Assembly (NCBI RefSeq): GCF_004335005.1
Contig: NZ_RQRT01000004.1
Span: 1-64,000, forward strand
Direction of reading: 5' to 3'
DNA: 64,000 nucleotides
From: Paracoccus nototheniae
GTDB lineage: Bacteria > Pseudomonadota > Alphaproteobacteria > Rhodobacterales > Rhodobacteraceae
This document shows positions 37,851-57,965 of the stretch, piece by piece (within the stretch, counting starts at the first letter, position 1; the number at the start of each line of letters is the position of its first letter). A program made the position numbers and the translations under genes. A model generated the notes under the pieces. The model searched no databases and was not told the origin of the DNA. It saw only the letters and a program-made list of their open reading frames with translations.

Positions 37851-38430
37851 GGGGCAGAACCTCTTTCACGATGCGGGCGACGGCGGCGCGGGCGCTGTCC
37901 GGGCTGTCGGTCGGAATGATCCAGTCGGCACGGGCGCGCTTTTCCACATCCGGCATCTGCCGCGCAAGGATCATCTGCAGCATGGCAGGCGTCATGCCGG
38001 GTCGGGCCAGCACCCGCGCCGCCTGCGTGGCGGCATCGGTGGAGACGACCGCGACCCCGTCCAGATCCGGCGCGCTGGCGCTTTCGAACAGCAGCGGGAT
38101 GTCCAGAACGACCAGAGGCCGGTCGGCATGGCGGATCAGAAAGTCCTGACGGTCCTGCGCCACCAGCGGATGGACCAGCGCCTCCAGCCGGGCGAGGGCG
38201 CCGGGATCGGCGGCCAGCGCGGCTTTCAGCCCCGCGCGGTCGATGCCGCCATCCTTCAGCGCGGTCGGAAAGGCCTGTGCCACGGGTGCCACGGCGCCGC
38301 CGCCGGGGGCATAAAGACGATGCACCGCCTGATCGGCATCCCAGACCGGATGGCCCAGATCGCGGAACATCTGCGCGGTCGTGGATTTGCCCATGCCGAT
38401 GCTGCCCGTCAGGCCAAGCCGAAAGCTCAT
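37843..38430 (-). CDS. coaE: Dephospho-CoA kinase
   Basis: 195 aa. P-loop GLTGSIGMGKSTTAQMF at the N-terminus, conserved WDADQAVHRLY (CoA-binding) and LVHPLVAQDRQDF, and lid residue region VLDIPLLFESA. Catalyses the final phosphorylation in CoA biosynthesis. Overlaps aroE (4 bp) upstream and dnaQ downstream, so it is transcribed with both. Confidence 0.95.
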   Translation of the reverse strand: MSFRLGLTGSIGMGKSTTAQMFRDLGHPVWDADQAVHRLYAPGGGAVAPVAQAFPTALKDGGIDRAGLKAALAADPGALARLEALVHPLVAQDRQDFLIRHADRPLVVLDIPLLFESASAPDLDGVAVVSTDAATQAARVLARPGMTPAMLQMILARQMPDVEKRARADWIIPTDSPDSARAAVARIVKEVLPHA

Positions 38431-39293
38431 CCCAGGGCGACCCTGCGGGCTTCGTCGTCAATCTCGGGGCGCTGGCCAAACCAGCGTTCAAAGCCGGGCG
38501 CCGCCTGATGCAGCAACATGCCCAGACCATCGACGATCCGGCAGCCGCGCGCCTGCGCCTCGGCCAGAAAAGGGGTCATCAGGGGCGTATAGACCAGATC
38601 GGTGACCAGAGCATTGGGCGACAGCGCATCCATGGGCACGCGCAGGGGCTGTTTCCCCTGCATCCCAAGCGAGGTGGCGTTGACGACCGTGGTCGCGCCT
38701 TCCAGCATGTTGCCGACCTGCGCCCAGTCATAGACGACCAGCCGCGCGCCGAATTCCGCCCTGATCTGTTCAGCCCGCAGACGGGTGCGGTTGGTTATGC
38801 GCAATTCCTTGACGCCGCTGTCCAAAAGCGAGGCGACCACGGCCCGCGCCGCCCCGCCTGCCCCGATCAGCGCCGCCGGGCCCAGATCGGGCTGCCAGTC
38901 GGGCGCATATTGCCGCAGATTGGCGATGAACCCATAGCCGTCGGTATTGTCGGCATGGATCTTGCCGTCCGGACGAAAGATCAGCGTGTTCGCCGCCCCG
39001 ATCAGCGCGGCGCGATCGGTGACGGTATCGGCCAGCGTCAGCACGGCCTCTTTATGCGGGATGGTGACATTGGCGCCGACGAAACCCGCGCGCGGCAGGA
39101 TGCGCAGCACCTCGGCCAGATGTTCGGGCATGACCGGCAGCGGGACGTAATGGCCTGGCAGGCCATAACGCGCCAGCCAATGAGCGTGCAGACGGGGTGA
39201 ACGGGAATGCGCGATGGGCATGCCGATCACCCCGGCAAGCGGCGCGTGGATTATCTGGCTGGCTGGCAGGTCGTCTGGCATGGGCATGTTCAT
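38427..39293 (-). CDS. aroE: Shikimate dehydrogenase
   Basis: 288 aa. Substrate-binding domain with GMPIAHSRSPRLHAHWLARY and the catalytic Lys in NVTIPHKEAV; Asp partner in NTDGYGF; NADP-binding domain with ALIGAGGAARAVVASLLDSG and NRTRLRAEQ. Reduces 3-dehydroshikimate to shikimate in aromatic amino acid synthesis. ATG 39293 gives the normal start; ATG 39287 is possible. Its upstream region is the putative replication origin, so its promoter lies within the DnaA-box cluster. Confidence 0.95.
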   Translation of the reverse strand: MNMPMPDDLPASQIIHAPLAGVIGMPIAHSRSPRLHAHWLARYGLPGHYVPLPVMPEHLAEVLRILPRAGFVGANVTIPHKEAVLTLADTVTDRAALIGAANTLIFRPDGKIHADNTDGYGFIANLRQYAPDWQPDLGPAALIGAGGAARAVVASLLDSGVKELRITNRTRLRAEQIRAEFGARLVVYDWAQVGNMLEGATTVVNATSLGMQGKQPLRVPMDALSPNALVTDLVYTPLMTPFLAEAQARGCRIVDGLGMLLHQAAPGFERWFGQRPEIDDEARRVALG

Positions 39294-39397
39294 CGCTGAC
39301 CGTTTCAGATCACAGAGTAAGGGCAGGCCGCGCGGGGCGAAAGCCCTGACCGGCCACATGCAGCATTTGCTGTGGCTGGGACGGCGCAGGTGCGGCC

Positions 39398-39760
39398 TGT
39401 GGACAAAAGCCGGGGGAATCGGGGCGGGGCCTGAAGACAACCCGCGTCAAGCCCTGACAGCCGCAAACTTTGCCCTGGAACGGAGCCGGAACGAGGATGG
39501 GTTGCGCACAGGTGGACAACCGGGCGCGGCACGGCGGGCCTTCTGTGGGCAAGTTTGGCACGGGACTCTTATCCGCAAACTTATCCACATTTCACCGCTT
39601 TGTTTACAAACATTTTTCAGGCTCTGTCATGGGTTCCGCACATCCTTGTCCACAGTGGGCGATTCTGAGGAAATCCCGGTGGGTAGAGTCCACATCCTTG
39701 TGTCCACAGGCCCTACTACAACAACATTCCTTTCTCTCTTCTTTCTATTTAAGTGGGGAA
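39398..39760. other. Probable chromosomal replication origin (oriC) with DnaA boxes
   Basis: The ~480-bp gap between aroE and hemJ has no credible gene but holds a cluster of DnaA-box-like nonamers: a perfect TTATCCACA at 39581-39589, TTATCCGCA at 39569-39577, TTGTCCACA at 39646-39654, its reverse complement at 39398-39406, and weaker copies near 39512, 39544 and 39697. An AT-rich stretch (39715-39750, TACAACAACATTCC then a CT-run) at the right end could be the unwinding element. A TTTACAAACATTTTTC stretch follows the perfect box. The flanks (aroE-coaE-dnaQ on one side, hemJ-rho-mnmE-mnmG-rsmG-parAB on the other) are the usual origin neighbours. Confidence 0.78.
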
Positions 39761-39777
39761 GACGGAAAGGAACCGCG

Positions 39778-40224
39778 ATGTTCGACGGATTGGCGCTGAT
39801 CTATCCCTATGTGAAGGCATTCCATGTGATGGCGGTCATCTCGTGGATGGCGGGCCTGTTCTATCTGCCCAGATTGTTCGTCTATCACGCCGAACGCGGG
39901 GCCAGCGGGTCCGAACCGGTCAGCAGCTTCGTGATCATGGAAGACAAGCTGCTGCGCGTGATCATGCGCCCGGCGATGATCGCGACCTGGATCAGCGGGC
40001 TGTCGCTGGTGCTGACGCCGGGGATCGTCAGCTGGTCGATGACCTGGCCTTGGGTCAAGGCCGTCTGCGTGATCGCGATGACCGTGTTTCACATGTGGTG
40101 CGCGGCCGAACGGCGGCGTCTGGCGGCCGGATCGGCGCAGACCGGGCGGCGATATCGCATGATGAACGAGGTTCCGACCCTGCTGATGGTGGGGATTGTC
40201 ACCTCGGTGATCGTCAAGTTCTGA
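39778..40224 (+). CDS. hemJ: Protoporphyrinogen IX oxidase HemJ
   Basis: 148 aa with four membrane helices. Conserved N-terminal YPYVKAFHVMAVISWMAGLF with the heme-ligand His, then LPRLFVYHAERG; later WVKAVCVIAMTVFHMW and MNEVPTLLMVGIV. HemJ oxidises protoporphyrinogen IX to protoporphyrin IX in heme synthesis in many alphaproteobacteria. AGGAACCGCG precedes ATG 39778, which decides the start; the frame is open further upstream through the origin region by chance. Downstream is rho. Confidence 0.94.
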   Translation: MFDGLALIYPYVKAFHVMAVISWMAGLFYLPRLFVYHAERGASGSEPVSSFVIMEDKLLRVIMRPAMIATWISGLSLVLTPGIVSWSMTWPWVKAVCVIAMTVFHMWCAAERRRLAAGSAQTGRRYRMMNEVPTLLMVGIVTSVIVKF

Positions 40225-40291
40225 TCGAAAAGATTGACTCGAGGGGGCGGGCGGCTTATTTGCGCCCCAACCCCGGCCGTCCGGTACGGGA

Positions 40292-40300
40292 TTTTCCACA
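40292..40300 (+). promoter_or_regulatory. Additional DnaA-box-like site between hemJ and rho
   Basis: TTTTCCACA matches the relaxed E. coli DnaA consensus TTWTNCACA. It lies 500 bp outside the main cluster, within the rho leader. Confidence 0.4.
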
Positions 40301-40351
40301 CACAACGTCTTGTCCGCCCGATCTGTCGCGCGGCCGAAAGTATTTGCCAAG

Positions 40352-41623
40352 ATGACCGAAGAACGCCTGAATCTGATCGACCTGAAAGCCAAAAGCCCCG
40401 CCGACCTGCTGTCGATGGCCGAGGAATGGGATGTCGAGAACGCCTCGACCATGCGCAAGGGCGAGATGATGTTCTCGATCCTCAAGGAGCATGCCGAAGA
40501 GGGCTGGGAGATCGGCGGCGAAGGCGTTCTGGAGGTCGTGCAGGACGGTTTCGGCTTTCTGCGGTCGACCGAGGCGAACTATCTGCCCGGACCGGACGAT
40601 ATTTACGTCAGCCCCGACATGATCCGGCAGCATTCGCTGCGCACCGGCGATTCGGTCGAGGGCGTCATCCGCGCACCCGGCGAGAATGAGCGGTATTTCG
40701 CGCTGACCAAGGCCGAAAAGATCAATTTCGAGGATCCCGAAAAGGCCCGCCACAAGGTCGCCTTTGACAACCTGACCCCGCTTTATCCCGATGAGCGGCT
40801 GAACATGGAAATCGAGGATCCGACCCTGAAGGATCGCAGCGCGCGGATCATCGATCTGGTCGCACCGATCGGCAAGGGCCAGCGGTCGCTGATCGTGGCC
40901 CCGCCGCGGACCGGCAAGACGGTGCTGCTGCAGAACATCGCGCATTCCATCGAACGCAATCACCCCGAATGCTATCTGATCGTGCTGCTGATCGACGAGC
41001 GGCCCGAGGAAGTGACCGACATGCAGCGCAGCGTGCGCGGCGAGGTCGTGTCATCGACCTTTGACGAACCGGCCAGCCGCCACGTCGCGGTGTCCGAGAT
41101 GGTCATTGAAAAGGCCAAGCGTCTGGTCGAGCATAAACGAGATGTTGTGATCCTTTTGGATTCGATCACAAGACTTGGGCGCGCCTTCAACACTGTTGTG
41201 CCCAGCTCGGGCAAGGTGTTGACCGGTGGTGTCGATGCGAATGCGTTGCAGCGCCCCAAGCGGTTCTTCGGTGCCGCGCGGAATATCGAAGAGGGCGGCA
41301 GCCTGACCATCATCGCCACCGCGCTGATCGATACCGGATCGCGTATGGACGAGGTGATCTTTGAAGAATTCAAGGGCACCGGCAACAGCGAGATCGTTCT
41401 GGATCGCAAGGTCGCCGACAAGCGCGTCTTCCCGGCCATGGACATCCTGAAATCCGGCACCCGGAAAGAAGAGCTGCTGGTCGATGCCAAGGATCTGCAA
41501 AAAACCTATCTGCTGCGTCGGATCCTGAACCCGATGGGGACGACCGATGCGGTCGAATTCCTGATCTCGAAGCTGAAACAGACCAAGAGCAATGCCGAGT
41601 TCTTCGACTCGATGAACGCCTGA
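40352..41623 (+). CDS. rho: Transcription termination factor Rho
   Basis: 423 aa. N-terminal OB-fold RNA-binding region (about 50-120, with [20 protein letters not shown] and [20 protein letters not shown]) and RecA-like ATPase core with P-loop [12 protein letters not shown], Walker B region [19 protein letters not shown] and the RNA loop [17 protein letters not shown]. Hexameric helicase that ends transcripts. ATG 40352 gives the conserved [14 protein letters not shown] start; the longer open frame upstream is not conserved. The ~130-bp leader could carry autoregulatory Rho-utilisation signals. Confidence 0.97.
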
Positions 41624-41633
41624 CGGGGCAGCG

Positions 41634-42899
41634 ATGGACCTGATCTTTGCAGAAGCCACCCCGCCCGGGCGGGGGGGCGTTTCGATCATTCGCCTCAGCG
41701 GGTCGGGTGCAAGATCGGCTGCCGAGCGTCTGGTCGGTCCCATGCCTTCGCCAAGGGTCGCATATTTCCGCGATCTTGCGGATGCGGATGACCTGATCGA
41801 TCAGGTTCTGGCGATGTGGTTCGCAGACGGGTCCAGCTTTACCGGTGAGGAAGTCGCCGAGTTGCACCTGCATGGCGCCCCCGTCATTGCGCGTCGGGTG
41901 GGGCGTGCCTTGGTGGATCTTGGGGCGCGTCCGGCAGAGGCCGGTGAATTCACGCGGCGTGCTTTCCTGAACGGGCGCATGGATCTTGCCTCGATCGAGG
42001 GGCTGGGGGATCTGCTGGCAGCCGAGACGGAAGAGCAACGCAAGCTTGCGCTTCGGACAGCGTCGGGTGAGTTGGGGCGCAAAGCCGAGGATTGGCGCAG
42101 GTTGCTGGTCGAGGCCGGAGCGCTTGTCGAGGTCAGCGTCGATTTCGCGGATGAGGATGTGCCGGATGACGTCCCGCAGCGGGTCTTCGAGGCGATCGAG
42201 GAACTGCAGATTGCACTGCGTCGGGAATTGGACGGTTTCGGTGCGGCCGAACGCTTACGCGCAGGGTTCGAGATTGCGATCGTTGGGCCTCCGAACGCTG
42301 GAAAATCAAGCCTTTTAAACCGTTTGGCAAAACGGGAGATGGCGATTGTTTCCGAAACAGCCGGAACGACTCGTGATGTGATCGAACTGCGATATGACCT
42401 TCACGGGCTTGCTGTCACCTTTCTGGACACGGCGGGACTGCGGGATGCCGAGAACGCGATTGAGGCCGTAGGCATTGAACGCGCAAGGCAGCGAGCAGCG
42501 TTGGCCGACCTTCGGATCCATTTGTCCGTTGACGGAACACCAGTTCGGGATCTGTGGTTTGAAGGTGATCTTGCTGTGCAAGGGCACGCGGACAAGCTGG
42601 CGCATGTCTCTGGTCTGGCCGTGTCACCGATAACAGGTCAAGGTGTTGAGGCTTTGCTCAGTACGCTTCATGCCCGGTTGCAACAGCGTGTCGCGCATGC
42701 AGGTGTTATCAGCCATGACAGGCAACGCGCAGAATTGGCAACGGCCCTGTCCGCGCTTGAGAATATTGGCGATTTTCCCGCCGAATTGATTGCCGAATCG
42801 CTGAGGATCGCGGCATCCTCATTAGACCGGCTTGTGGGACGGATTGGGGCCGAGGACTATCTGGACCTGATCTTTTTGTCTTTCTGCATCGGTAAGTAG
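41634..42899 (+). CDS. mnmE: tRNA-5-carboxymethylaminomethyl-2-thiouridine GTPase MnmE (TrmE)
   Basis: 421 aa, slightly shorter than E. coli (454). N-terminal tetrahydrofolate-binding domain (IFAEATPPGRGGVSIIRLSG), helical domain, inserted G domain with G1 GPPNAGKSSLLNRL, G2 TAGTTRD and G3 DTAGL, and the C-terminal CIGK. The G4 region, normally NKxD, reads VQGHADKLAH (about residues 315-324), so the guanine-specificity motif is degenerate. Works with MnmG to modify U34 of tRNAs. From about here codon use becomes AT-richer than in rho. It is followed directly by mnmG. Confidence 0.93.
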   Translation: MDLIFAEATPPGRGGVSIIRLSGSGARSAAERLVGPMPSPRVAYFRDLADADDLIDQVLAMWFADGSSFTGEEVAELHLHGAPVIARRVGRALVDLGARPAEAGEFTRRAFLNGRMDLASIEGLGDLLAAETEEQRKLALRTASGELGRKAEDWRRLLVEAGALVEVSVDFADEDVPDDVPQRVFEAIEELQIALRRELDGFGAAERLRAGFEIAIVGPPNAGKSSLLNRLAKREMAIVSETAGTTRDVIELRYDLHGLAVTFLDTAGLRDAENAIEAVGIERARQRAALADLRIHLSVDGTPVRDLWFEGDLAVQGHADKLAHVSGLAVSPITGQGVEALLSTLHARLQQRVAHAGVISHDRQRAELATALSALENIGDFPAELIAESLRIAASSLDRLVGRIGAEDYLDLIFLSFCIGK

Positions 42900-42902
42900 G
42901 AG

Positions 42903-44771
42903 TTGTTCCACGTGAAACATTACCATGTCGCCGTGATCGGTGCCGGCCACGCCGGTCTTGAGGCCGCGACGACTGCTGCCCGGATGGGCGTGTCGGTTTT
43001 GCTGATTACGATGCAACAATCCGATATTGGGGCTTTGTCTTGCAACCCGGCCATTGGTGGCTTGGGAAAGGGGCACCTTGTTCGCGAAATAGACGCCCTT
43101 GATGGAGTCATGGGCCGCCTTGCAGACCGGGCTGGCATTCAGTTTCGCCTTTTGAACCGCAGAAAAGGACCGGCAGTCCGAGGCCCCCGGGCGCAGATGG
43201 ACAGGTCCTTGTATCGGGATGCCGCTTGGACGCTGATCAGCACTTACCCTGGCGTCGATCTGAAATTCGCCGAGGTTACGGAGCTTCTGGGAAGCGAACG
43301 AAGTGTAACCGGCCTTCGCTTGTCAAATGGGGAGGAAATCGTCTGCTCGACCGTCATTCTGACCACCGGCACGTTCCTGAACGGGCTTATTCATATCGGT
43401 GATGTGACGCGTGCGTCTGGCCGGTGGGGTGATGCGTCCGCAAACGGCCTTGCAGAGTCGCTGAAGAAGTTCGGATTGCCTTTAGGGCGCCTGAAGACCG
43501 GGACGCCACCGCGCCTTGATGGCCGGACCATCAACTGGCCGGTTCTTGAGCAGCAACTTGGCGATGAAGAGCCCGCCACCTTTTCCTACATGGACGCCGG
43601 ACCTTTGTCCGAGCAGATTTCTTGCGGAATTACTCATACGAATGAGACCACGCACAGGATCATTCGCGACAATCTTCATCGCTCTGCCATGTATGGCGGC
43701 CATATTTCTGGTCGCGGTCCCCGCTATTGTCCCTCGATCGAGGATAAGGTCGTTCGCTTTGCGGATAAATCATCCCATCAAATATTCCTGGAACCGGAAG
43801 GCTTGGACAGCCATTCCGTCTATCCGAACGGGATCTCGACGTCATTGCCGGTCGAAGTTCAGCGGGCCTACGTTCGATCCATCCAAGGGTTGGAGAATGT
43901 CGATATTCTGCAGCCCGGCTATGCGGTCGAATATGATTACATCGATCCCCGCAGCCTTGATGCATCGCTGGCCGTAAGGACCGTCGATGGACTTTACCTT
44001 GCTGGCCAGATCAACGGGACGACCGGGTATGAAGAGGCGGCGGCCCAGGGGCTTGTGGCGGGCCTGAACGCGGCCTTGGCAGCGACCGGACGTGATCCTG
44101 CGATTTTCAGCCGCGCGGAAAGCTACATCGGGGTGATGATTGACGATTTGACCAATTTTGGGGTGACTGAACCTTACCGCATGTTCACGTCGAGAGCAGA
44201 GTTCCGACTGACGCTGCGGGCTGATAATGCGGACCAGCGCCTGACGCCCTTCGGCATCCAATTTGGATGCGTCGGTGTAGAGCGTCAGGTCATGTTCAAT
44301 GCACGGCAAGACCGTTACACCAAGGCTCGGGCTTTGGCGGAAGCGACCAGCCTGACCCCAACCGAGCTTGCGCGGTGCGGCGTCAATGTGCGCCAAGATG
44401 GGCGCGCAAGGTCGGTGTTCGATTTGCTTGCAGTTGTCGAAATTGAAGATTCCACTATTCGCCAGATCGCACCTTGCTTGGGTCAGGTCTCTTCAGTGAC
44501 GCTGAATCAGCTTCGGAATGACGCCATTTATGCCCAATATGTTAAGCGGCAAGAAAAAGATGTCGATGATTTGAAGCAAAGCGAGGGGTTGGTTCTGCAT
44601 GTGGATATGGACTACCAGTCCCTCGGTGGCCTATCCAATGAGATCTCCCGCAAGCTGGCGGACATCAAGCCCCGCAATCTGGCTGAGGCGGCGAGGATCG
44701 AGGGCATGACGCCAGCGGCGCTGACTCTTCTGATTGCAGCCACCAAGCTAAAGATGCGCCATTCAGCATGA
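42903..44771 (+). CDS. mnmG: tRNA uridine-5-carboxymethylaminomethyl modification enzyme MnmG (GidA)
   Basis: 622 aa. FAD-binding Rossmann motif [59 protein letters not shown] and [17 protein letters not shown], all MnmG signatures. The start region reads MFHVKH from TTG 42903, because a parS copy is embedded in it; a GTG at 42912 has the better Shine-Dalgarno spacing and is the alternative. Partner of MnmE, encoded just upstream. Overlaps rsmG by 4 bp. Visibly AT-richer than the window average: 44521-44580 has 23 G+C of 60. Confidence 0.95.
42904..42919. promoter_or_regulatory. parS site 1 (one mismatch), inside the mnmG start
   Basis: TGTTCCACGTGAAACA differs from the consensus parS TGTTTCACGTGAAACA at one base. 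ParB binds parS and nucleates the segregation complex; parA and parB lie 2.5 kb downstream. The site overlaps the first codons of mnmG. Confidence 0.88.
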
Positions 44772-45361
44772 CCAATGTTTCACGTGAAACAGAAAACTTG
44801 CTGCTGGCATATCAGTCTCTGGTCGCCAAATGGAATCCAAAAATCAATCTGGTCGCCGCATCGACCATTCCGGACTTTCGCTTTCGCCATATCCAAGACT
44901 CGCTGCAGCTTGTTGCGCTTGCTGATCCTTCAGGTGGGCATTGGGTCGACCTGGGGTCTGGCGGCGGTCTGCCCGGCATCGTTATCGGGATCATGACCGC
45001 TGGTTCGGCCCTAACGGTTCATTTGGTTGAAAGTGATCAACGCAAGGCGGCGTTTCTTCGGACTGTTGTGCGCGAACTTGAACTGCACCAAGTGACTGTC
45101 CTGTCTGAACGGATCGAGTCCACCGAACCGTCCCGCGCGGATCACCTCTCGGCACGCGCTTTGGCGCCGTTGCCCAAACTTCTTGAAATGGCAGAAAGAC
45201 ATTTGAAGCCGGGGGGAACCGCATGGTTGATGAAGGGTCGGACATGGAAGGCCGAGTGCGAACAAGCCTCTGTCGATTGGCGATTTGATTTCGCCGCATA
45301 CCCGAGTAGAACGGATCCAGAAGCCGCAATCCTGAAAGTGACCGGAGTGTCTCATGCCTGA
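44768..45361 (+). CDS. rsmG: 16S rRNA (guanine527-N7)-methyltransferase RsmG (GidB)
   Basis: 197 aa. Class I methyltransferase with the SAM motif [18 protein letters not shown], preceded by [20 protein letters not shown], and later [20 protein letters not shown] and WLMKGRT. Methylates G527 of 16S rRNA. The ATG overlaps the mnmG stop; codons 3-8 (NVSRET) are written by the embedded parS. Overlaps parA by 8 bp. Confidence 0.95.
44776..44791. promoter_or_regulatory. parS site 2 (perfect), inside the rsmG start
   Basis: TGTTTCACGTGAAACA, a perfect 16-bp palindromic parS, lies 1.87 kb from parS site 1 and 0.58 kb upstream of parA. It forms codons 3-8 of rsmG. Confidence 0.97.
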
Positions 45362-46139
45362 GCAGCATATCGTGGCCATCGCCAATCAAAAGGGCGGCGT
45401 TGGAAAGACGACGACCGCTGTAAACCTTGGGACAGCGCTGGCGCAGGCGGGCCATTCGACGATATTGGTTGATCTTGACCCTCAGGGCAACGCATCGACC
45501 GGCCTTGGCATCAGTGGCGATCAACGCGATTACACGATCTATGATCTCCTGACCGGAGAGGTCGACCTTCAGACCGCCGCCTTGGAAACGGACATCAGGA
45601 ACCTCCGTGTCGTCCCGTCCACGTCCGATCTTGCATCGGCAGATGTTCAACTGTCTCAGGCACTTGATCGGACCAGATTGCTGGAACGGCAGCTTTCCTC
45701 GGCACCTGCGGGAACGATCATTCTGATCGATTGTCCACCTGCGCTTGGTTTGTTGACGGTCAATGCGATGGTTGCGGCCACCAGCGTGCTGGTTCCACTG
45801 CAGGCCGAGTTCTATGCGCTCGAGGGTCTTTCCCAGCTTCTTGCGACCGTCAAGCAGGTCCGGCAGGGTGCAAATCCCCGTTTGCGCATCAATGGCATCC
45901 TGCTGACCATGTCGGATTACCGCAACAACCTCTCCCAACAGGTGGAGGCGGATGCCAGGGAAACCTTGGGCGATCTTGTCTATCCGACCGTCATTCCCCG
46001 GAATGTGCGCGTGTCAGAGGCGCCGTCGCACGCACAGCCGGTTTTGATCTATGACCCCTCGTCCAAGGGCAGCGTCGCGTATCGTCAGTTCGCGGCCGAA
46101 TTTACGGCGCGCCTGAACCTTCAGCCGGAGAATGCCTGA
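45354..46139 (+). CDS. parA: Chromosome partitioning ATPase ParA
   Basis: 261 aa. Deviant Walker A KGGVGKTTTAVNLGTALAQ with the signature Lys, switch I/II region VLVDLDPQGNASTGLGI-type sequence and IILIDCPPALGLLTVNAMVA. Membrane of the ParA/Soj group; ATP-bound dimers pattern on the nucleoid and pull ParB-parS complexes apart. Start overlaps rsmG; stop overlaps parB by 1 base, so all are coupled. Confidence 0.96.
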   Translation: MPEQHIVAIANQKGGVGKTTTAVNLGTALAQAGHSTILVDLDPQGNASTGLGISGDQRDYTIYDLLTGEVDLQTAALETDIRNLRVVPSTSDLASADVQLSQALDRTRLLERQLSSAPAGTIILIDCPPALGLLTVNAMVAATSVLVPLQAEFYALEGLSQLLATVKQVRQGANPRLRINGILLTMSDYRNNLSQQVEADARETLGDLVYPTVIPRNVRVSEAPSHAQPVLIYDPSSKGSVAYRQFAAEFTARLNLQPENA

Positions 46140-47032
46140 TGTCGGATAACAAACTTGCAAAGCGCGGTCTGGGGCGTGGCCTGTCCGCCTTGATGGCCGA
46201 TATGGATCTTGACGGCAGCCCGGCAGCCGCACCCGTCCGCGACCGGACGTTGGTGCCGATCGAACAGATCACCGCCAACCCCGACCAGCCACGGCGCAGC
46301 TTCGATCCCGAGGCGCTGGAAGAGCTGGCGGCATCGCTGAAGCAACGAGGCATCCTGCAGCCTTTGATCGTGCGGCCGCACCCCGACGACAAGGCGCTGT
46401 TCCAGATCGTCGCCGGGGAACGTCGCTGGCGCGCCGCACAGATGGCGCAACTGCATGAAATTCCGGTCATTATCCGTGAGATGACCGATACCGAGGTGCT
46501 TGAAGTTGCGATTATCGAAAACATTCAGCGCGCGGATCTGAATGCCATCGAAGAGGCCGCATCCTTCCGCCAGCTCATGGACCGCTTTGGCCACACTCAG
46601 GAACGCCTGGCCGAGGCGTTGAACAAAAGCCGCAGTCACATCGCCAACCTGCTGAGGCTTCTGACTTTGCCTGAACAGGTTCAGGACATGGTCAAGTCCG
46701 GCAAGCTCAGCGCGGGCCATGCCCGTGCGCTGATCACGGCGCCCAACGCGCCGCAACTGGCCATGAAGATTGCCGAAAAGGGCCTCTCGGTCCGCGAGAC
46801 AGAGGAAATGGTCCGCAATCAGGCGCAACCGTCCGATGCCAAGGCCCGGAAGGCGTCGCGGCACACGGAGAAAGATGCGGACACGCGGGCGCTCGAGGCT
46901 GATCTTTCTGCGCATCTCAAGATGAGGGTCGACATCTCGCATGTCGGGACCGAGGGCGGCCATATCACGATCACCTATCGCGAACTCGACCAGCTCGACC
47001 AACTCTGCCAGCTTTTGGGTGGTCAAGGCTAA
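46139..47032 (+). CDS. parB: Chromosome partitioning protein ParB
   Basis: 297 aa. N-terminal GLGRGLSALMADM, the CTP-binding/ParB box QITANPDQPRRSFDPEALEE and GERRWRAAQMAQLHEIPVII, a helix-turn-helix (FGHTQERLAEALNKSRSHIA) and a C-terminal dimerisation domain. ParB is a CTPase clamp loading at parS and sliding on DNA, providing the centromere of the origin region. The two parS copies lie upstream in the same operon. Confidence 0.96.
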   Translation: MSDNKLAKRGLGRGLSALMADMDLDGSPAAAPVRDRTLVPIEQITANPDQPRRSFDPEALEELAASLKQRGILQPLIVRPHPDDKALFQIVAGERRWRAAQMAQLHEIPVIIREMTDTEVLEVAIIENIQRADLNAIEEAASFRQLMDRFGHTQERLAEALNKSRSHIANLLRLLTLPEQVQDMVKSGKLSAGHARALITAPNAPQLAMKIAEKGLSVRETEEMVRNQAQPSDAKARKASRHTEKDADTRALEADLSAHLKMRVDISHVGTEGGHITITYRELDQLDQLCQLLGGQG

Positions 47033-56162: not shown

Positions 56163-57965
56163 ATGAAACATCTCTTGAACAGCGCGGCTGTCGCCTTGCT
56201 TTTGACGGGTGGTTCGGCATACGCAAACGAAAGCGTGTTGGCCGAGACCGCCAAGCCAGAACAATGGGCGATCCAGACCGGCAACTATGCCAACCAGCGC
56301 TATTCCGAACTGGATCAGATCACCCGGGAAAACGTCGGCGACCTGCGCGTCGCCTGGAGCTTCTCGACCGGCGTTCTGCGCGGGCACGAGGGTGGGCCAT
56401 TGGTCGTGGGCGACATGATGTATGTCCACACGCCCTTCCCCAACAACATCTTCGCGCTGAATCTGGCTGACAACGGCAAGATCGCCTGGCGCCACACCCC
56501 CCAGCAGGATCCCGAAGTCATCGCGGTCATGTGCTGCGACACCGTTTATCGCGGCGTCGCCTATGCCGACGGGCTGATCCTGTCGCATCAGGCCGACACC
56601 ACGCTGGTCGCGCTGGATGCGCTGACCGGTGAGGTCAAATGGTCGGTCAAGACCGGCGATCCGGCCATTGGCGAGACGAACACCGCGACCGTGATGCCGG
56701 TGGGCGACAAGGTTCTGGTCGGCGTCTCGGGCGGCGAATACGGCGTGCGTGGCCGGATCACCGCCTATAACCTGTCCGACGGCACCGAGGCGTGGAAAGC
56801 CTATTCCACCGGCCCGGACGAGGAAATGCTGGTCGATCCCGAAACCACCACCCATCTGGGCGAGCCGATCGGCGCCGACAGTTCGCTGAACAGCTGGGAA
56901 GGCGATCAGTGGAAGATCGGCGGCGGTTCGACCTGGGGCTGGTTCAGCTATGACCCGGATCTGAATCTGGTCTATTACGGCACCGGCAACCCCTCGACCT
57001 GGAACCCCAGCCAGCGGCCCGGCGACAACAAATGGTCGATGACGATCATGGCGCGCGATGCCGATACCGGCATGGCCAAATGGTTCTATCAGAAGACCCC
57101 TCATGACGAGTGGGACTATGATGGCGTCAACGAGAACATCCTTGTCGACAAGGAAATCGACGGGGTCGAGCGCAAGCTGCTGGTGAACTTTGACCGGAAC
57201 GGGTTCGGCTATACGCTGGACCGCGAGACGGGCGAGCTGCTGGTCGCCGAAAAGTTCGATCCGGCGGTGAACTGGGCCACCAATATCGACATGGACAAGG
57301 AATCGGAAACCTACGGCCGTCCCATGGTCGTGGCCGAATATTCCACCGCGCAAAACGGCGAAGACACCAACACCACCGGCGTCTGCCCGGCGGCACTGGG
57401 GTCCAAGGACCAGCAGCCGGCGTCCTATTCGCCGAAAACCGGTCTGTTCTATGTGCCGACCAACCACGTCTGCATGGATTACGAACCCTTCCGCGTCGCC
57501 TATACGGCGGGCCAGCCCTATGTGGGCGCGACCCTGTCGATGTATCCCGCACCTGACAGCCATGGCGGCATGGGCAACTTCATTGCCTGGGACGCCGTGG
57601 CCGGCGAGATCAAATGGTCGCTGCCGGAACAGTTCTCGGTCTGGTCGGGCGCCCTGGCGACCGCTGGCGATGTCGTCTTCTATGGCACGCTGGAAGGCTA
57701 TCTGAAGGCGGTCGATGCCGAAACGGGCGAGGAACTCTACAGCTTCCGCACCCCCTCGGGCATCATCGGCAACGTCATGACCTATGAGCGTGACGACAAG
57801 CAGTACATTGCGGTGCTGTCGGGTGTCGGCGGTTGGGCCGGGATCGGCCTGGCAGCCGGTCTGACCAACCCCAATGACGGTCTGGGTGCCGTGGGCGGCT
57901 ATGCCGCGCTCAGCGACTATACCGAACTGGGCGGCCAGCTGACCGTGTTCGAACTGCCGGGCTAA
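56163..57965 (+). CDS. xoxF: Lanthanide-type PQQ methanol dehydrogenase XoxF
   Basis: 600 aa. Signal peptide [20 protein letters not shown], then an eight-bladed propeller quinoprotein. The vicinal disulfide pair is in VMCCDTV (Cys ~124/125). The catalytic motif is DEWDYDG: Asp ~318 is the catalytic base and Asp ~320 is the extra lanthanide ligand that is Ala in calcium-dependent MxaF. PQQ/Trp-docking repeats such as [16 protein letters not shown] and [14 protein letters not shown] are present. Periplasmic oxidation of methanol with electrons to the cytochrome encoded next. ATG 56163 is preceded by GGAGGAG. Belongs to the XoxF5-like group by overall pattern. Confidence 0.97.

Follow-up and report, generated by a model that had tools for sequence, protein, structure and literature searches.

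The gap between aroE and hemJ (39291–39777) is, judging from its sequence and from that of its relatives, very probably the chromosomal origin of replication (oriC) of this Paracoccus genome, and within it lies a 66-bp element in which a tandem pair of DnaA boxes, a short GC-rich spacer, a period-3 repeat, and a pyrimidine tract follow one another. The origin is an ordinary kind of thing in its expected place, and the location of Rhodobacteraceae origins near parAB was already known; what is new here is the conserved box-spacer-repeat-tract element. What stands above the ordinary is this conserved variant unwinding element together with a tyrosine in alphaproteobacterial DnaA.

The window, that is, the whole stretch of DNA analyzed (64,000 nucleotides), comprises bases 1 to 64000 of contig C180 (177,063 bp), which belongs to a 4.6-Mb draft assembly of 235 contigs. 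Its features relevant to the origin are the following (sequence model R1 is described below).

38427–39290, minus strand: aroE, left neighbor (Pfam match)
39291–39777, no strand: predicted oriC region, gap between aroE (minus) and hemJ (plus)
39398–39406, minus strand: DnaA box TTGTCCACA, one mismatch (sequence match)
39511–39519, minus strand: weak DnaA box, two mismatches (sequence match)
39544–39552, minus strand: weak DnaA box, two mismatches (sequence match)
39569–39577, plus strand: DnaA box TTATCCGCA, one mismatch (sequence match)
39581–39589, plus strand: perfect DnaA box TTATCCACA (sequence match)
39646–39654, plus strand: DnaA box TTGTCCACA, one mismatch (sequence match)
39416, 39564, 39661, and 39686 (within 39416–39690), no strand: four GANTC sites, probable CcrM methylation sites
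39691–39756, plus strand: predicted conserved unwinding element like the basal unwinding system (BUS) (model R1 match, 55.9 bits)
39692–39700, plus strand: upstream box of the tandem pair, decayed in the window as in most Paracoccus sites
39700–39708, plus strand: downstream box of the tandem pair, GTGTCCACA, two mismatches, 4 bp before CTA
39709–39712, plus strand: 4-bp GC-rich spacer GGCC
39713–39727, minus strand: period-3 array, 3'-GAT GAT GTT GTT GTA-5', two canonical DnaA-trios and then variants
39728–39753, plus strand: pyrimidine tract with TTTAAG at its end, probable DNA unwinding element (39713–39753 least stable)
39778–40224, plus strand: hemJ, right neighbor (Pfam match)
42904–42919, plus strand: perfect parS TGTTCCACGTGAAACA, first codons of mnmG
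44776–44791, plus strand: perfect parS TGTTTCACGTGAAACA, first codons of rsmG
45354–46136, plus strand: parA (Pfam match)
46139–47029, plus strand: parB (Pfam match)

A cluster of DnaA boxes between aroE and hemJ

The gap is bounded by the starts of aroE (39290) and hemJ (39778), and we saw no further gene within it, though the hemJ frame stays open upstream; an earlier note on this DNA had described the stretch as gene free. To the left lie dnaQ-coaE-aroE and to the right hemJ-rho-mnmE-mnmG-rsmG-parA-parB. Pfam matches agree with these names (dnaQ as an RNase_T exonuclease, coaE, aroE, hemJ as UPF0093, rho, mnmE, mnmG, rsmG, parA, and parB) and bear out the two flanking groups, dnaQ-coaE-aroE and rho-mnmE-mnmG-rsmG-parAB, that the note had named. 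The UPF0093 gene is the one we take to be hemJ.

One perfect box (39581) and three one-mismatch boxes (39398, 39569, and 39646), all claimed earlier, were found at those positions, and the "several weaker" boxes of the same claim correspond to three two-mismatch boxes at 39511 (minus), 39544 (minus), and 39700 (plus). The 363 bp from 39398 to 39760 hold 4 of the 12 boxes with at most one mismatch on C180, versus 0.02 expected at contig density, and the aroE-hemJ gap is the densest DnaA-box cluster of this 177-kb contig. Simulated gaps of 484 bp with the gap's own first-order Markov composition held a mean of 0.05 boxes, and 0 of 2,000 held four or more. A lone perfect box was rejected as evidence for an origin: such a box is not special, because the genome has 12 of them, compared with 19 for the reversed control. 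By nearest-neighbor energy, 39713–39753 is the third least stable 40-bp place in the 64-kb window, and 0.016% of the C180 windows are less stable.

Some other features of the region deserve mention. A TTTGTTTACAAA stretch at 39600–39640, flanked by the central boxes and the box at 39646 and recognized by eye, is common to some close relatives; it is possible that it serves as a binding site for another origin protein. GANTC is strongly avoided in the window (71 sites versus about 300 expected), and 10 of its 11 GACTC/GAGTC sites fall within the low-GC origin-rho-rsmG block at 39.5–45.2 kb (39564–45116). Four Paracoccus relatives likewise have more GACTC/GAGTC sites downstream of hemJ (4 to 8) than upstream (0 to 2).

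A 66-bp element of boxes, spacer, repeat, and tract

The AT-rich CT tract reported in the earlier note at 39715–39750 is real and falls in the unstable spot described above, but it is the right half of a larger element at 39691–39756, and the main feature, a conserved succession of boxes, spacer, repeat, and tract, had been missed. We first noticed this block as conserved in the hemJ-upstream DNA of relatives. In the window it reads CACATCCTT-GTGTCCACA-GGCC-CTACTACAACAACAT-TCCTTTCTCTCTTCTTTCTATTTAAG, which corresponds to a box pair, the spacer GGCC, a CTAC-NN-CAWCAWCAT repeat, and the pyrimidine tract.

The tandem boxes are co-oriented and lie 0 or −1 bp apart. Of the two, the downstream box is the stronger, meaning closer to consensus, in 57 of 66 Paracoccus sites, whereas 15 of 24 sites from elsewhere in the family have their stronger box upstream; this swap between Paracoccus and the rest of the family provides a natural experiment on which box matters. 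Across the array, the top strand has C at 39713, 39716, 39719, 39722, and 39725 in 59, 53, 63, 66, and 65 of the 66 genus sites, respectively; the trio strand therefore keeps a 3'-G at each first position. One extra base occurs in the array of 13 of the 66 sites. The central A of the trio strand is far more variable, being present in 57, 26, 10, 1, and 10 of the 66 sites for trios one to five, while in a register shifted one base later the second half is richer in central A (45/66 at 39724 and 57/66 at 39727).

Conservation of the element in the genus and the family

The 66 Paracoccus loci consist of the window's own locus, 29 taken by rank, one further genome (G020), and 35 chosen for having no match to a 25-letter pattern at hemJ; the remaining 34 of the 100 genus genomes with hemJ lie outside this set. 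A position-weight search placed the element in all 66 loci, with a lowest score of 29.1 against −7.2 for the best shuffle (10 shuffles per locus). Because the matrix was trained on the sites that it scores, the held-out count given below (64 of 88) is the fair one. The 25-letter pattern itself, allowing up to three mismatches, gave 102 matches in 70 of 101 genus genomes, versus 27 for its reversed control; at zero or one mismatch it gave 39 matches, one each in 39 of the 101 genomes, and all 39 lie 34–64 nt upstream of hemJ.

We aligned 90 sites (alignment A1), namely, the 66 genus sites and 24 of 34 other family loci read, and built sequence model R1 from them. R1 has one match at an E value of ≤0.001 in its own genome, at 39691–39756 (E = 1e-14). 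It matched 178 of 296 family genomes; the other 118 gave none, which speaks against the reading, although the strict search filters lose weak matches. Among the matches listed, 98 were compared with the hemJ table: hemJ was found for 88, in all of which the element lies 9–61 bp upstream on the same strand, and for the other 10 it was absent from the listed hemJ matches, some of these genomes having a weak hemJ match or none. Sixty-four of the 88 are outside A1 and were thus held out from R1. The predicted element is fixed at one place, upstream of hemJ, in the genus and the family.

A look-alike of the element's middle at 56423–56452 (13 bits) was rejected as a second element; it is in frame within a gene and for that reason probably coding. 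The gene presumably encodes a PQQ-dependent alcohol dehydrogenase, as which it reads. A similar match also lies about 16–17 kb from the element in five of the relatives.

The openly available literature consulted on bacterial oriC, DnaA-trios, and alphaproteobacterial origins yielded no description of the element, and a prior sighting is possible.

A predicted variant of the basal unwinding system

As laid out in the available text of two studies (PMC6669920, PMC8287927), the Bacillus BUS consists of tandem boxes, a GC-rich spacer, and a period-3 array. The predicted unwinding module of the window is a variant of this plan in which the first trios are canonical (3'-GAT-5') and the rest read 3'-GT(A/T)-5'. 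A box with at most two mismatches 0–16 bp before the trios is present, in the form of GTGTCCACA at 39700–39708, 4 bp before CTA; where the published rule calls for at least three consecutive 3'-NAN-5' trios, the window has two (CTA CTA).

It is doubtful that the module is instead a canonical BUS identical in plan to that of Bacillus subtilis, with central-adenine trios throughout. The box pair, the 4-bp GC-rich spacer, and a first trio 3'-GAT-5' whose A is kept in 57 of 66 genus sites are all what such a system would have, and 29 of the 66 sites pass the published trio rule, compared with 4 of 66 when shuffled once each (one strand orientation was tested). However, the rule fails in the window itself and in 37 of the 66 genus sites, the fourth trio in the first register shows an A on the trio strand in 1 of 66 sites, and the genome's own DnaA has Tyr at the position of Bacillus Asn187, the adenine-contacting residue.

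According to the available text of PMC10721633, the central adenine is the base that Bacillus Asn187 contacts, and its replacement by T or G weakens the origin more strongly than replacement by C. In an alignment to 8btg, the B. subtilis pocket residues N187, I190, I193, R202, and E228 correspond to Y, V, L, K, and E in the genome's own DnaA; hence, four residues of the nucleobase pocket are conserved or similar and the adenine-contacting one is changed. We surveyed 57 DnaA loci, including the own dnaA, of which 2 were unreadable; the sample was partly chosen for R1 matches, included the best 30 loci from one set of 60 genomes, and excluded four loci with weak or partial matches before the count. 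The equivalent of residue 187 is Tyr in 26 of 29 alphaproteobacteria (F, N, and V in the others) and in none of the 26 other Pseudomonadota (T in 7, N in 8, Q in 4, and A in 7).

These observations suggest a tentative reading, which we regard as possible rather than probable: Alphaproteobacteria may have an unwinding code of their own, with a tandem box pair and a CAW/CAT repeat (trio strand 3'-GTW-5') read by a Tyr-187 DnaA, initiator and origin having changed together. Under such a code, DnaA would either read G plus a pyrimidine in each trio or engage the other, adenine-bearing strand. The link between the variant element and the DnaA tyrosine is a hypothesis. The sole alphaproteobacterium with Asn (G498) has CTACTACTT, which amounts to three canonical trios, a hint of linked change from a single case. 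Against a strict link, the 29 genus sites passing the NAN rule coexist with Tyr in all four own-genus DnaAs examined (the own included), and the residue is variable outside the class as well, being neither Asn nor Gln in 14 of the 26 other Pseudomonadota. Whatever the code, the natural variant, together with the DnaA change, offers material on which the Bacillus-derived trio rule can be tested.

The element beyond the family

A search of 289 genomes from the class gave R1 matches in 24, namely, the own genome, 3 further members of the family, and 20 from other families. By motif reading, ten of these 20 have a hemE start downstream and another 4 have ppsR or maf on the upstream side (two of the placements were checked by reading frames); the other 6 have none of hemE, ppsR, or maf nearby and were counted as misses. 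The 14 of 20 therefore lie at the place of the Caulobacter origin, which was located by experiment between hemE and the DUF299 gene (PMC1914354, in its available text). One family member, G086, retains hemE between the element and hemJ, an order of genes that is probably the older one, and there a block TAATCCCCA ... TTCTACAACAACC ... CTTAAG, seen by eye and unscored by R1, precedes hemE. The own hemE lies elsewhere in the genome, on contig C182, at a locus that contains neither a box with at most one mismatch nor an R1 match. Because G086 and the other families have the block before hemE and the own hemE locus is without it, the block appears to follow the origin and not the gene. The likeliest reading of the Paracoccus arrangement is an ancestral origin whose flanks have lost ppsR, maf, and hemE.

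The same comparison bears on whether the 66-bp element might be a promoter or leader of hemJ and not an unwinding element, which we consider very unlikely. Its position 9–61 bp upstream of hemJ in all 88 listed family genomes compared is what a leader would show, and a heme gene is also downstream in ten class-level matches. Yet in G086 the same kind of sequence (again by eye) stands upstream of hemE and not of hemJ, in other families the element precedes hemE, the hemE locus of the own genome has neither a box with at most one mismatch nor an R1 match, and the element begins with tandem DnaA boxes. The unwinding element that we favor may nonetheless share its sequence with a hemJ leader or promoter.

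parS sites, GC skew, and the origin call

The region downstream of the gap contains two perfect parS sites, at distances of 3.1 and 5.0 kb. Three parS matches occur at up to three mismatches, a number reached by 0 of 100 shuffles. parS was present with similar spacing in 6 of 7 relatives scanned, the seventh locus extending 2.6 kb 3' of hemJ, too short to show it.

With the own assembly in 235 contigs, whole-genome GC skew is not readable from it. We sampled two single-contig Paracoccus genomes, G244 and G205, with 20 stretches of 20 kb per genome arranged around hemJ (one G205 stretch, which reads all N, was dropped). Mean skew in the sampled stretches was +0.009 to the right of hemJ and −0.018 to the left in G244, and +0.023 and −0.013, respectively, in G205; in both, the right/left contrast was largest with hemJ taken as the origin. 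The resolution of this sampling is about 160 kb, because one step to the left in G205 gave a nearly equal contrast (0.0357 versus 0.0362). Finer sampling of G205 put the cumulative skew minimum at 756 kb within 658–902 kb, with the origin locus at 780 kb and dnaA at 1114 kb, which argues against dnaA as the origin. The fine skew of G244 is irregular, with a minimum at about 14 kb within the sampled 0–155 kb (dnaA at 0.5 kb and oriC at 72.7 kb), and the hemJ locus and dnaA, 72 kb apart, are therefore not separable there.

On C180 itself the best local skew break among positions 36–141 kb is at 39 kb, but skew is strongly negative beyond about 97 kb, and its cumulative curve bottoms out at 173 kb, not at the gap. 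Own-contig skew was rejected as proof of the origin; it is useful only locally, since its direction is wrong beyond about 97 kb. Outside the window, GACTC/GAGTC sites return in the part of C180 from about 90,000 to 177,063 that contains this negative stretch, and a 6-kb piece taken at 124 kb is unmatched in G203 and G271, with just 499 bp of it matching G244; this part of the contig has the look of an island or of a rearranged arm. As for the GC-skew inversion that the earlier note had offered as a check, the hemJ locus agrees with it at about 160-kb resolution in both relatives and at fine scale in G205, but not at fine scale in G244 or on the own contig beyond 97 kb. That note's central claim, that the gap is the origin, is supported by the box cluster, the parS sites beside parAB, the skew in two relatives, and the element, which is positionally fixed in the genus and family and in other alphaproteobacterial families mostly adjoins hemE, ppsR, or maf.

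An origin at dnaA, the arrangement of many bacteria, with the gap serving as a mere DnaA-binding regulatory or titration site, is extremely unlikely: dnaA does occupy the first 1000 bases of contig C1 in five relatives (probably a numbering convention), and the G244 fine skew is compatible with such an origin, but the 3.5-kb locus of the own dnaA (contig C133) is devoid of boxes with at most one mismatch and of R1 matches, even at E values up to 10, dnaA of G205 lies 334 kb from a hemJ locus that has the local skew minimum near it, and parS and parAB adjoin hemJ.

Proposed course of initiation

Taking as observed the sequence parts, their conservation and place, the parS sites, and the skew in relatives, we infer a course of DnaA loading, tract melting, and helicase loading from likeness to the Bacillus BUS. 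DnaA would bind the cluster at 39398–39654, anchored by the perfect box at 39581, and would be loaded from the tandem pair (39692–39708) across GGCC onto the bottom strand of the array at 39713–39727. The array and the pyrimidine tract (to 39753) would then melt, helicases would be loaded at the melted tract, and two forks would depart. ParB acting on the two parS sites 3–5 kb downstream would segregate the new origins.

Comparison with known origins

The gene order around the Caulobacter crescentus origin, Cori, is presumably maf, aroE, coaE, and dnaQ on one side and hemE, hemJ, and rho on the other; as read from related families, Cori and the window share this ancestral neighborhood. Cori, in the hemE-COG1806/DUF299 gap, resembles the window in combining DnaA boxes with a roughly 40-bp AT-rich region, as described in the available text of PMC1914354. 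The origin of the window differs in having no adjoining hemE and no ppsR or maf between aroE and the gap, Cori being compared here by description. Cori has five CtrA sites, whereas the gap 39291–39777 has no TTAA-N7-TTAA with at most one mismatch, and a Caulobacter-type, CtrA-controlled origin was rejected on this count.

The B. subtilis oriC BUS, as far as it is set out in the available text of PMC6669920, PMC10721633, and PMC8287927, has in common with the window tandem co-oriented boxes, a short GC-rich spacer, a period-3 array starting with 3'-GAT-5', and an unstable tract behind it. The window differs in being without three NAN trios, in an array that becomes CAWCAWCAT, and in a DnaA whose residue 187 is Tyr and not Asn.

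Closest in subject is a study that located 101 Rhodobacteraceae oriC by Ori-Finder, GC disparity, and parAB and left eight strains unresolved (PMC6699656, available text). It covers the same family with the same criteria as were used here and likewise places the origin near parAB. Its available text relies on boxes, skew, and parAB and names no conserved unwinding element, and "hemJ" is absent from the main text. The 66-bp signature needs nothing but sequence to place the origin, including in drafts without usable skew, and is relevant to the eight strains that the available text of that study (PMC6699656) lists as unresolved.
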